Assembly (NCBI RefSeq): GCF_000967425.1
Contig: NZ_FO082820.1
Coordinates: 2,046,001 to 2,110,000, forward strand
Direction of reading: 5' to 3'
DNA length: 64,000 bases
Origin: Pseudorhizobium banfieldiae
GTDB taxonomy: Bacteria; Pseudomonadota; Alphaproteobacteria; Rhizobiales; Rhizobiaceae
Position 1 is the first letter of the stretch, and every line of letters starts with the position of its first letter. Shown piece by piece: positions 19,201-53,975 of the stretch. The translations under genes and the position numbers were made by a program. The notes under the pieces were generated by a model. That model did not search any database and had not been told where the DNA came from. It saw only the letters and a program-made list of their open reading frames with translations.

Positions 19201-21015
19201 GGTCGCCTGCACCAGCCATTGCTGCACCTTGTCATCCTCGATCAGCGGCATGAGCTTCTCGCGCGTCGCGGCGTGATAGCCGTTCAGCCAGTCACGCTCC
19301 TCCGCCGTCAGAAGCTCCGGCAGGACAAGGCGGCGATCGATCGGGCACCATGTGAGCGTCTCAAACGACAGCATCGGGATGTCGCCGCCCTCGATGTCCG
19401 TCGCTTCCTTCACATAGATCAGGTTCTCGATGCGGATGCCGTAATGGCCGGGACGATAATAGCCGGGCTCATTCGAGAGGATCATCCCAGGCAGGAGCTC
19501 CTGCGTCGACAGCCGGGCGATCCGCTGCGGCCCCTCGTGCACGGAGAGATAGGAACCGACGCCGTGGCCGGTCCCGTGGGCATAATCGCCGCCGGCCTTC
19601 CACAAGGCGATCCGCGCAAGCGGATCGAGATCGCAGCCGCGCGTGCCTTTGGGGAAGCGCGCGATGCTGATCGCGATCATCCCCTTCAGAACAAGGGTGA
19701 AGAAGCGCTTGCGGTCTTCCGGAACATCGCCAATCGCGACAGTCCGGGTGATGTCGGTGGTGCCGTTGATATATTGGGCGCCGGAATCGATCAGGAAGAG
19801 TTCACCTTCGTTCAGTGGCCTGTCCGTCTCCGTCGTCACCCGGTAATGAATGACCGCGGCGTCTGGCCCCGCCCCGGAGATGGTATCGAAGGAAATGTCC
19901 TTGAGCGGGCTCTGCATCTGCTCACCCACCTTCACGCGGGCAGCCTCCAGCGCCCGGACCGTCTCGATCTCGGTCACGCTGCCCGCTTGCTGCCCGTCGA
20001 GCCAGCAGAGGAACTGGACGACGGCGGCCCCGTCCTGCAGATGCGCCTTCGCCGAGCCTTCCAGTTCGGCAGCGTTCTTGCAGGCACGCGGCAAGCGCGC
20101 GGGATCGGTTGCCTCGACGACGCTTCCGCCAGCCTTCTCGATCGCGATGCTGAGAGCCAGCGGAGCGAGATCGGCATCGAGCATGATCGGTCCGCGCCTC
20201 GCCCAATCCTCGAGCCGGGCAGGAAAGTCCGCGGGCGGCAGTTGTTCGGCGAGTTGGGCAAGGTAGGCGCGGGCCTCGATACCGGTCTTGCGCTCGTCGA
20301 GAAAGAGCAGCGGCCTGCCCTCGGCCGGCACAATGGCCCGTGCCAGCGGATGAGGGGTATGCGGCACGTCGCTGCCGCGGATGTTGAAGAGCCACGCGAC
20401 CGAAGACGGATCCGTGATGATGACGGCGGCGGCGCCCTTCTCCTTCACCTGCGCGGCAATCATGGGGATCTTTTCGGCTGCAAGCGTGCCAGCATGTTCA
20501 TGCCTCTGGATCATCACCGCGCCCATGGGTTCGGCCGGACGCTCCGTCCAGATTGCGTCGAGGGGGTTGGACGGGACGAAGACCAGCGACCCGCCGATCT
20601 CGTCAAGCGCCTTGCTCAGCTTGCGCACTTCCGCAGCCGTATGCAGCCATGGGTCCACACCGAGACGGAACCCCTTAGCGGCGTTGGCCTTCAGCCAGGC
20701 ATGCGGCGGCTCGTTGACGAGGTCGCCGCCGGAAAAGACGCTGCCGTCCACCTGCTCCTTGAGCTGCGTGATATAACGCCCGTCGACGAAGATCACCGCC
20801 TGCGAACGCATCACGAGTGCGACACCGGCCGACCCGGTAAAGCCGGTAAGCCAGGAAAGCCGCTCGGCCGACGCCGGCACGTACTCACCCTGGTATTCGT
20901 CGGCGCGAGGCACCAGAAACCCGTCAATCCCGAGGCCGTCGAAATGGCTGCGCAAGGCGCTCACGCGCTCGCGGCCGGACTGGGGGGGGGACCTGCTGTC
21001 GAAGGACTGGAACAT
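19189..21015 (-). CDS. Aminopeptidase P (Xaa-Pro aminopeptidase, M24B)
   Basis: This 608-residue peptidase removes N-terminal residues before proline. Its length and three-domain plan match the long (eukaryote-like APP1) form: two creatinase-N-like domains at residues about 15-300, then a pita-bread catalytic domain. Metal ligands appear in LIDSGAQYINGTTDITR (two Asp), GTGHGVGSYLSVHEGP (His), SNEPGYYRPGHYGIRIEN (Glu) and LSFETLTWCPID (Glu). ATG 21015 (MFQSFDSRS) is preferred, because the frame extends to 21114 without a better start. The gene stands alone between azlD, which converges on it, and the divergent DUF1127 gene. Confidence 0.93.
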   Translation of the reverse strand: MFQSFDSRSPPQSGRERVSALRSHFDGLGIDGFLVPRADEYQGEYVPASAERLSWLTGFTGSAGVALVMRSQAVIFVDGRYITQLKEQVDGSVFSGGDLVNEPPHAWLKANAAKGFRLGVDPWLHTAAEVRKLSKALDEIGGSLVFVPSNPLDAIWTERPAEPMGAVMIQRHEHAGTLAAEKIPMIAAQVKEKGAAAVIITDPSSVAWLFNIRGSDVPHTPHPLARAIVPAEGRPLLFLDERKTGIEARAYLAQLAEQLPPADFPARLEDWARRGPIMLDADLAPLALSIAIEKAGGSVVEATDPARLPRACKNAAELEGSAKAHLQDGAAVVQFLCWLDGQQAGSVTEIETVRALEAARVKVGEQMQSPLKDISFDTISGAGPDAAVIHYRVTTETDRPLNEGELFLIDSGAQYINGTTDITRTVAIGDVPEDRKRFFTLVLKGMIAISIARFPKGTRGCDLDPLARIALWKAGGDYAHGTGHGVGSYLSVHEGPQRIARLSTQELLPGMILSNEPGYYRPGHYGIRIENLIYVKEATDIEGGDIPMLSFETLTWCPIDRRLVLPELLTAEERDWLNGYHAATREKLMPLIEDDKVQQWLVQATEPV

Positions 21016-21138
21016 GAAAGCTTTCCGGGAGGAGTGATTCAAAGGGTACGCGATACTAGCGGGGCGCAGCTCGCACCGCCAGAGCGGGAGAACGTCCGCC
21101 GATCTATTGTGCATCTGCTAACTGTATGTGGACGGCGA

Positions 21139-21167
21139 TTGCACAGGCCATGCACCCAGCGCATAAC
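21139..21167 (+). promoter_or_regulatory. Candidate promoter of the DUF1127/sRNA unit
   Basis: TTGCAC (21139-21144) and CATAAC (21162-21167) are separated by 17 bases, a good fit to a housekeeping promoter. This predicts a leader of about 95 bases before the DUF1127 start. It is inferred from sequence; an RpoH- or stress-type promoter is not excluded. Confidence 0.45.
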
Positions 21168-21266
21168 ACCGTTGATGGGAAGCCCCTCACTGCACCGCAC
21201 AATCCGGACTATATTCCACTCATCGAACGGGCAATGAACAGCGCCCGCGATGAAAGGATATATAAA

Positions 21267-21440
21267 ATGGCCAACTCAATCTTCCGCACTGCCTTCGAAC
21301 GCGTGGTCGCAGCGCGCGAGCGTCAGGCCAGCCGCTACGTCAACAACGTTCTCATGAACCTGGACGACCAGACCCTGAAGGGCATGGGAACCAGCCGCGA
21401 AGAACTCCGCCGCAAGGGCGGATCGGGTTTCGTATTCTGA
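21267..21440 (+). CDS. DUF1127 small protein
   Basis: This 57-residue basic protein starts MANSIFRTAFERVVAARERQ and has the family core VVAARERQASRYVNNVLMNL, then LDDQTLKGMGTSREELRRKG. AAAGGA lies upstream of ATG 21267; a longer frame from 21126 lacks family sequence. Small DUF1127 proteins of alphaproteobacteria include CcaF1 of Rhodobacter sphaeroides, an RNA-binding protein cotranscribed with the anti-Shine-Dalgarno sRNAs CcsR1-4. Here too the gene is followed, nine bases after its stop, by hairpins with CCUCCUCCC-type loops and then a strong terminator. The role in this organism, likely RNA turnover or stress response, is inferred from that parallel. Confidence 0.9.
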   Translation: MANSIFRTAFERVVAARERQASRYVNNVLMNLDDQTLKGMGTSREELRRKGGSGFVF

Positions 21441-21448
21441 TTTAAAAC

Positions 21449-21482
21449 CCTGGCGGTCTTTCCTCCTCCCTCCCCCGCCAGG
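21449..21482 (+). ncRNA. Cuckoo/CcsR-like sRNA hairpin 1 with anti-SD loop
   Basis: CCTGGCGG (21449-21456) pairs with CCGCCAGG (21475-21482). The 18-base loop contains CCTCCTCCC at 21462-21470, complementary to GGGAGGAGG-type ribosome-binding sites. A stem-loop presenting this motif downstream of a DUF1127 gene is the hallmark of the alphaproteobacterial cuckoo RNA family. Processing ends are not known. Confidence 0.72.
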
Positions 21483-21501
21483 CCTTCGGAATATGGACCA
21501 A

Positions 21502-21533
21502 CCCGCTAGAGCCGCTCCTCCCCGGCTCGCGGG
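21502..21533 (+). ncRNA. Cuckoo/CcsR-like sRNA hairpin 2 with anti-SD loop
   Basis: An outer stem CCCGC/GCGGG and an inner stem GAGCCG/CGGCTC enclose the 8-base loop CTCCTCCC (21515-21522). It repeats the design of the hairpin 20 bases upstream, giving a tandem pair. A third, simple hairpin (GATCAGG/CCTGATC, 21537-21555) lacks the CCTCC motif. Together they look like an array of processed sRNAs on the DUF1127 transcript. Confidence 0.65.
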
Positions 21534-21558
21534 CTAGATCAGGAATAACCTGATCGCG

Positions 21559-21588
21559 AAGGCGGTGCCCTATGGCGCCGCCTTTTTC
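21559..21588 (+). terminator. Rho-independent terminator of the DUF1127/sRNA unit
   Basis: AAGGCGGTGCC and GGCGCCGCCTT form an 11-bp stem with one G-U pair and a CTAT tetraloop, ending in a TTTTT run. It closes the transcript after the three hairpins and before the opposing prmA gene. Confidence 0.85.
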
Positions 21589-21644
21589 TTATCCCTCTTC
21601 TCCGGATCGACTCCTGCAGCACGCGCAATGCTGCATCGCAACAA

Positions 21645-22568
21645 CTATTGTCCCTGCCGCAGGTGGATCGTTACCCAGCCGTTGCGCCAGAGCGTATGCA
21701 CATGCCGAAGATGAACGGCGTTATAGGCAGCAAGAACCTTCCAGCGCTGCTCGGCCAGAATCCCCGACAGGATCACCGATCCACCGGATGCGACGTTGGC
21801 TGCAAGTTGCGGCGCCATGCGCATCAGCGGCCGGGCAAGAATATTGGCGGTGATAAGGTCGAAAGGTCCCTCTTGCCTGAAGGCGGGCGAATGGAAGCCT
21901 GGCGCCGTCACAAGCCGCAGTCCAGACACGATCCCGTTGCGCCGGACGTTCTCCTGAGCCACCCGAACCGCGACCGGGTCGATATCAGTGGCAAGAATGG
22001 GGATGTTGCGGATCTTCCTAAGGCCGATCGCGAGCACGCCGCTGCCGGTACCGAGATCGAGCGCGTTGCGGATCGGGCGGGCCCGGGCGACCGCATCGAT
22101 CATCTCCAGGCAGCCGGCGGTCGTCCCGTGATGCCCGGTCCCGAAGGCTTGGCCGGCATCAATCTCGATCGATACATCGTTGGGACGGACCTTGTCGCGG
22201 TCATGCGAGCCGTGAACCAGAAAGCGCCCTGCCCGAACCGGCTTCAGCCCCTCGAGCGATTTCGCGATCCAGTCGACATCGGGGATTACCTCCCTCTCGA
22301 TCAGGGCTTGGGGGAAGGCTGGCGCGAGACCATCCGACATGCGCTGCCGGACCTCTTCCTCCTCGTCCGCCATCAGGTAGACCGAGGCTTCCCAGAGATC
22401 CCGCTTCTCGTCGACCTCGGTGGTCCCGAGCGCGTAGTCCTCCTCGCCGAAGATGTCCGTGAATATATCGAGGATGCGCTCGGCATCCTTTTCGGTGGTG
22501 CTGACGTAGAGGCGGATCTCGCTCAAGATTGCGCTTTCGGATGGTTGCGGATGCGGGACGGATGCCAC
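21645..22568 (-). CDS. prmA: Ribosomal protein L11 methyltransferase
   Basis: This protein of 293-307 residues trimethylates ribosomal protein L11 using S-adenosylmethionine. The N-terminal substrate-binding domain covers about 1-115. The catalytic Rossmann domain carries GQAFGTGHHGTTAGCLEMI, LDLGTGSGVLAIGLRK and TANILARPLMRMAPQL. Two starts are possible: GTG 22568, with AAGGGGCG upstream (307 residues), or TTG 22526, which begins MSEIRLYVSTTEKD as in the family and gives the usual 293 residues but has a weak ribosome-binding site. The outer start is given. It lies 34 bases downstream of the SCO1 gene and may be co-transcribed with it. Confidence 0.93.
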   Translation of the reverse strand: MASVPHPQPSESAILSEIRLYVSTTEKDAERILDIFTDIFGEEDYALGTTEVDEKRDLWEASVYLMADEEEEVRQRMSDGLAPAFPQALIEREVIPDVDWIAKSLEGLKPVRAGRFLVHGSHDRDKVRPNDVSIEIDAGQAFGTGHHGTTAGCLEMIDAVARARPIRNALDLGTGSGVLAIGLRKIRNIPILATDIDPVAVRVAQENVRRNGIVSGLRLVTAPGFHSPAFRQEGPFDLITANILARPLMRMAPQLAANVASGGSVILSGILAEQRWKVLAAYNAVHLRHVHTLWRNGWVTIHLRQGQ

Positions 22569-53540: not shown

Positions 53541-53975
53541 AGGTGCCAGTTGGCCTGTAAGCCGGGTTCTGTATGGCTCCGGCGCGAACCGGAACGTGGC
53601 AGCCATTCATCTGGGGCGATGCTTGCACATCGCCTCGCGCAACCCACCCGGATGACTGGCCTGGAAACCGGCTGTAGGCGCTTGCGCGCCCCACGTCATC
53701 CCTATTCGGTCTTGCTCCCGGTGGGGTTTACCATGCCGTCCCTGTCGCCAGCGACGCGGTGGGCTCTTACCCCACCCTTTCACCCTTACCCCGCCAGCTC
53801 TGCCGCTCGATGGGAGCGGGACAGCAGGCGGGGCGGTATCCTTTCTGTGGCACTTTCCCTGGGGTCGCCCCCGCCGGACGTTATCCGGCACCGTGTTTCC
53901 GTGGAGCCCGGACTTTCCTCACCTCACCGCCTTTCGGCATTGGTGAAGCGCGGCTGCCCGGCCAACTGGCCGCCC
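53541..53975 (-). ncRNA. rnpB: RNase P RNA, bacterial type A
   Basis: The minus strand carries the conserved core GAGGAAAGTCCGGGCTCC near the 5' end, then GATAACGTCCGGCGGGGG and AGGGAAAGTGCCACAGAAA, and near the 3' end AGAACCCGGCTTACAGG. The ends pair perfectly: GCCAGTTGGC (53970-53961) with GCCAACTGGC (53554-53545) forms helix P1. A -10-like CATTAT at 53985-53980 predicts the 5' end near 53975. This is the catalytic RNA that matures tRNA 5' ends. Ends are estimated to within about ten bases. The promoter overlaps the intergenic end of the neighbouring oxidoreductase gene. Confidence 0.93.

Follow-up and report, generated by a model that had tools for sequence, protein, structure and literature searches.

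We identified, in the window (the whole 64-kb stretch of DNA analysed), a locus that would produce, under the control of a LysR-type regulator (LTTR), an mRNA for a small DUF1127-like protein with cuckoo-type anti-Shine-Dalgarno (anti-SD) hairpins acting in trans from its 3' UTR, a reading that we hold to be somewhat more probable than its negation on the grounds of sequence and of analogy with known systems. The gene, the hairpins, the loop motif and a promoter pattern common to ar14 and DUF1127 loci are evident from sequence and conservation (Table 1). According to the proposed mechanism, a LysR-type regulator would activate a single, predicted transcription unit, whose mRNA would encode the 57-aa DUF1127-like protein and whose two 3' UTR hairpins would hold anti-SD loops open. 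These hairpins may act in trans like the NfeR1 and CcsR RNAs, with or without a cleavage between stop codon and terminator that would release sRNAs, and the protein may take part in the processing of RNA. By parallel with NfeR1, the loops would pair with AGGAGG-type ribosome-binding sites and lower the translation of target mRNAs, protein and riboregulator thus being delivered by one switch.

Table 1. Features of the locus (window positions)
Feature	Position	Strand	Basis
LTTR-type box TGCA-N6-GCAT (ATGC-N7-GCAT from 21150), about -70 to -57 of the predicted start	21151..21164	+	
-10 element CTATAT	21209..21214	+	sequence, genome-wide pattern search
Predicted start of transcription, TCATCGAA	21220..21227	+	inferred from CATCGAA shared with other promoters
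Likely Shine-Dalgarno sequence AAAGGA	21253..21258	+	sequence
57-codon gene, DUF1127-like arginine-rich helical protein	21267..21440	+	homologues, dN/dS, remote profile similarity
Hairpin 1, perfect 8-bp stem, 18-nt loop UCUUUCCUCCUCCCUCCC containing CCTCCTCCC	21449..21482	+	folding; covariation by arm swapping
Hairpin 2, stem 5+6 bp, loop CUCCUCCC containing CTCCTCCC	21502..21533	+	folding; relatives
Hairpin 3, 7 bp, without anti-SD motif	21537..21555	+	folding
Intrinsic terminator, hairpin 21558-21585 plus T-run	21558..21592	+	prediction, folding

A homologue search with the 57-aa protein retrieved 98 proteins (the window's own included as one), the nearest named relatives being Pseudorhizobium loci with 91 and 88% identity. 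Judged from these homologues and from a dN/dS of 0.13-0.30 (versus 7 named relatives), the gene is real and under purifying selection. It was matched in 54/57 genomes of the genus and in 171/297 sampled genomes of the same family, with prmA (named by both NCBIfam and Pfam) lying downstream and convergent in at least 139 of the 145 loci. Some database entries carry a 96-aa version of the protein (window 21126-21440), whose start lies within the promoter box; the version retained in relatives is the one starting at 21267, with AAAGGA ahead and its stop codon at 21438-21440, and the 96-aa start is, on this comparison, likely a wrong one. Two homologues (P0008 and P0009) are named DNA polymerase III sliding clamp, surely a wrong name. 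Helices at residues 3-30, 34-39 and 44-52 were present in the predicted structure (AlphaFold; mean pLDDT 75, pTM 0.47). No relevant PDB match was obtained with the protein family up to E 1, nor any match when a plasmid collection was searched with the locus.

The first-pass annotation had called this a DUF1127 gene, a call that neither Pfam nor NCBIfam gives for the 57-aa protein. PF06568 (Pfam) showed no match to it at E up to 10, the protein failing to reach the gathering cut-off of 23.3 bits, and touched 1/36 scanned family members, at E 0.22; among the 98 homologue entries, two (P0020 and P0097) bear a DUF1127 name from a source. Profile-profile comparison of the family with 18 DUF1127 proteins, taken from the window's genome and related genomes, yielded an hhalign score of 24.1 (probability 25.8%; E 1.4e-4, for one comparison), versus a maximum of 9.46 over 60 column shuffles and 2.04 for the reversed profile. 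The protein may be described as remotely DUF1127-like, by similarity to DUF1127 profiles only.

As for the promoter, its sequence resembles that of nfeR1, with an LsrB-type box and CTATAT, and is unlike the RpoH promoter of ccaF1-CcsR. S. meliloti LsrB is described as binding TGCA-N6-GCAT at -72 to -57 of nfeR1 (PMC10746234), and a box of this type is found near the same positions here, taking the predicted start as reference. Upstream of CTATAT no good -35 hexamer and no CTTG were observed, and a sigma-70 promoter scan of 20700-22200 gave no match. When compared by eye with the S. meliloti RpoH1 consensus CTTGAA-N16-CCTATAT, the locus has CTCACT instead of CTTG; this comparison is with the S. 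meliloti consensus, not the R. sphaeroides one, and the -10 part alone cannot separate the two promoter kinds.

Searching the 4.58-Mb genome of the window for TGCA-N6-GCAT-N(32-50)-CTATAT retrieved two matches, this locus and a 106-bit ar14 sRNA, with box-to-CTATAT distances of 44 and 43 nt at the two matches, versus none for the reversed control. Over the 57 genus genomes the combined pattern gave 50 matches in 33 genomes versus 12 control matches; among the 31 examined, the 57-aa gene follows in 13 cases, an ar14-like array in 6, a DUF1127 gene in 6 and something else in 6. All 25 promoters of the first three classes also contain GCAT-N8-TG, versus 1/6 of the others, a feature first spotted in this very set, and CATCGAA follows soon after CTATAT in 9/13 57-aa, 5/6 ar14-like, 5/6 DUF1127 and 0/6 other promoters. 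Two of the six unexplained matches (L239 and L244) are similar to each other, with identical 25 bases after CTATAT, and possibly represent a fourth transcript class. The ATGC-N7-GCAT form of the box lies upstream of 49/54 genus loci (within 200 nt), 7/7 named and 25/84 other loci, compared with 78/29,000 shuffled upstream sequences and 0/145 downstream stretches.

The LysR-type activator of the putative unit is fairly probably LsrB/VtlR. According to passages of the literature, VtlR activates AbcR2 and three small DUF1127 proteins in Brucella (PMC12595884), as well as atu1667 in Agrobacterium (PMC7486931). The window's genome contains in a row trxB, the gene of a LysR-type regulator (300 aa) and two sRNAs of the ar15 (AbcR) kind (L251:109-2454), and the regulator gene is expected to be lsrB on the basis of the gene order known for lsrB/vtlR. 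However, the published VtlR consensus GCAT-N3-TG-N3-T (PMC8844928, PMC7486931), detected in 6/6 ar14-like and 5/6 DUF1127 promoters, occurs in 0/13 57-aa promoters, the window's included, so that control by another LTTR may be considered, the rest of the module being as proposed. We give this alternative, which overlaps with the favoured explanation, appreciable weight but less than an even chance: all 13 examined 57-aa promoters deviate from the consensus, but the TGCA-N6-GCAT form, the CTATAT spacing, GCAT-N8-TG and, mostly, CATCGAA are common to the 57-aa, ar14-like and DUF1127 promoters.

Downstream of the gene, folding bore out the order proposed by the first-pass annotation, that is two motif stem-loops, a plain hairpin and a terminator after the stop codon. 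The two motif hairpins are separated by 19 nt, and the segment 21441-21592 (152 nt) has a folding energy of -67.2 kcal/mol (z = -5.2, with 0/200 shuffles as good), to which the terminator contributes. Loop 1 has the exact motif CCUCCUCCC and loop 2 8/9 of the motif bases; CTCCTCCC occurs five times on both strands of the window, in three cases within hairpin loops, and two of these three loop-borne copies sit at this locus, 52 nt apart. The cuckoo RNA family, as reportedly defined in a 2015 paper, has 2 to 4 adjacent hairpins with CCUCCUCCC in each loop and variable stems with pairing kept; the two motif hairpins of the locus fall within this number.

Conservation of these hairpins was followed across the loci bearing the gene. 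Hairpin 2, with at least the motif core in its loop, was found in 41/54 genus loci, and the motif at both hairpin places in 29/54; outside the genus hairpin 2 with the motif was found in 7/84 loci. The seven named relatives all possess motif hairpins, with a motif-bearing hairpin 2 in 7/7, and at least part of the motif is in the loop of 52/53 hairpin 2-type stems. In the arm-swapping test, which covered every locus with the motif at the respective place, the 34 distinct arm pairs of hairpin 1 had an own mean of 15.79, versus a mean of 12.18 and a maximum of 14.18 over 1000 permutations. The 37 pairs of hairpin 2 scored 13.99, versus a permutation mean of 13.04 and a maximum of 13.96, and in a narrower set of 33 pairs the own score was reached by 6/1000 permutations. 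Retention of the loop motif with compensatory stem changes, the check suggested beforehand, was thus found for hairpin 1, whose stems covary across relatives by this test, and is borderline for hairpin 2, whose stem covaries weakly: in relatives it mostly reads YCCGCUYGAGC/GCUCGCGGR and is hardly variable, with some exchanges preserving the outer pair (C-G to U-A). Given the relatedness of the loci, the counts of conservation and arm swapping are not independent. A conserved cleavage linker between the hairpins was also considered and rejected, GAAT[AG][CT] ahead of hairpin 2 in 19/53 being too weak for such a claim.

Despite the presence of the protein gene, anti-SD hairpin 2 is missing from 13/54 genus and 77/84 non-genus loci, and across 141 distinct loci, box and hairpin occur together in 45, the box alone in 32, the hairpin alone in 3 and neither in 61. 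Because many relatives, in and outside the genus, keep the protein, and some also the promoter, without these hairpins, the protein appears to work without them and to have no need of them, and the hairpins seem to have been gained in one part of the clade, or else lost in the remainder.

If the hairpins acted in cis, as a 3' stability or autoregulatory element pairing with their own ribosome-binding site or shielding the 3' end, their position would be easily accounted for, as the stop codon is followed 8 nt later by the first of them, within one predicted transcript, and the loops can pair with their own leader (computed -7.0 kcal/mol for loop 1 and -4.6 for loop 2). We nevertheless regard this as unlikely, as the loops pair more strongly with a generic SD (-10.0 and -8.7 kcal/mol), a pure shield needs no retention of the CCUCC loop while stem 1 varies, and many relatives have the gene without such hairpins. 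More doubtful still is that the hairpins serve primarily to titrate a protein, such as the 57-aa protein itself, or as its feedback site, with SD base-pairing being secondary. CcaF1, a DUF1127 protein, is reported to bind RNA and to help its own CcsR RNAs mature (PMC10253847), and the 57-aa protein is arginine-rich and predicted to be helical; but its DUF1127 likeness is only remote, the gene is often there without the hairpins, and DUF1127 proteins are described as also able to work via protein-protein contacts (PMC12501420). That C-rich hairpins without function arose by chance or artefact is hardly credible and already disfavoured by the folding z of -5.2, the covariation of hairpin 1 and the anti-SD hairpin 2 of 41/54 genus loci, even though CCTCCTCCC is not enriched genome-wide (66 versus 78 for the reversed pattern), for which reason the loop context was used as the marker of cuckoo loci. 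Action in trans on SD sequences, as set out above, is the reading we retain.

With respect to known RNA families, Rfam at the gathering cut-off matched in the whole window RNase P RNA alone (bacterial class A, 53542-53969, minus strand). A covariance-model check, of the type suggested by the first-pass annotation for the cuckoo RNA, went against a CcsR-like RNA: CcsR1 (RF02791, gathering 65.3 bits) was not listed here even with E values of up to 10 admitted, and ar14 (RF02344) reached 16.4 bits, far under its gathering cut-off of 58.8. The hairpins of the locus score closer to ar14 than to CcsR1. Among nine relatives' loci, the best ar14 score was 39.3 bits (E 7e-4, below the cut-off), at a locus (L046) whose terminator loop carries the motif too. 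Four ar14 loci above the cut-off are found in the window's genome. One of them, at L163 (G000:C1:1531500-1533900, minus strand), is a 63-bit ar14 sRNA followed after ~190 nt by two DUF1127 genes in tandem, so that gene and sRNA stand in the opposite order to the window locus; the interval from the sRNA to the first of these genes contains an ATGC-N7-GCAT box. As protein and RNA family models both miss the window locus, units of this kind may be under-counted.

The locus joins LsrB/VtlR-type control, small DUF1127-type proteins and anti-SD (cuckoo) RNAs, which the consulted papers on Rhizobiaceae mostly discuss separately. If the unit works as proposed, the relatives having the gene without hairpins would offer a natural test of protein-hairpin cooperation. 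As the free-standing NfeR1/ar14 sRNAs and the 57-aa mRNA have the LTTR-type promoter, the kind of anti-SD hairpin and, in most cases, the CATCGAA start in common, both could be versions of a single ancestral transcription unit that differ in whether an ORF lies in between, an idea that we consider rather unlikely. Were it true, a major family of rhizobial sRNAs would have arisen from, or given rise to, dual protein-riboregulator mRNAs, and small DUF1127-like proteins would be driven jointly with anti-SD RNAs by a single regulator. Among the literature matches listed for the cuckoo family, CcsR/CcaF1, VtlR/LsrB, NfeR1/ar14, CIN1 and Pseudorhizobium, the prmA-side locus is described in no title or abstract start; the tables of the cuckoo 2015 and CcaF1 2021 papers may include it.

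When compared with known systems, the locus shares with the VtlR/LsrB-activated small proteins (the Brucella DUF1127 trio and Agrobacterium Atu1667) an LTTR box, broadly alike in form, followed by a small protein gene. On the contrary, the published consensus is absent from the 57-aa promoters, and the source passages on those proteins contain no mention of anti-SD hairpins in their 3' UTRs. With alpha-r14/NfeR1 (RF02344, S. meliloti and relatives), whose three anti-SD loops are described as silencing ntrB (PMC10746234), the likeness consists of CCUCCUCCC loops on hairpins, the TGCA-N6-GCAT box at a nearly equal distance from CTATAT and, in most, the CATCGAA start. Nevertheless, alpha-r14/NfeR1 is a free-standing three-hairpin sRNA with the motif in the last hairpin, whereas the window locus has an ORF between promoter and hairpins, the motif on only two hairpins and a score below the cut-off. 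In R. sphaeroides, according to the source passages, the ccaF1 small protein gene is followed by the anti-SD hairpin sRNAs CcsR (PMC10253847, PMC8625941) under a promoter that uses RpoHI/RpoHII (PMC10253847). The first-pass annotation had proposed a CcaF1-CcsR-like operon with the same gene/hairpin order: the order was found to match, a small arginine-rich protein gene, anti-SD hairpins and a terminator lying on one transcript, here a predicted one, and hairpin 1 covariation also speaks for the proposal, but the DUF1127 match, the CcsR1 model and the kind of promoter do not. Indeed, the protein has 71 aa there versus 57 aa here, the latter without a Pfam DUF1127 match, four sRNAs correspond to two motif hairpins that the CcsR1 model does not recognize, and an RpoHI/RpoHII promoter to an LTTR-type one. 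Because its promoter is shared with NfeR1/ar14-type sRNAs, the parallel with these is no less close than that with the operon of Rhodobacter, and the locus is, on the evidence of its sequence, a separate rhizobial version of the known ccaF1-CcsR-type layout.
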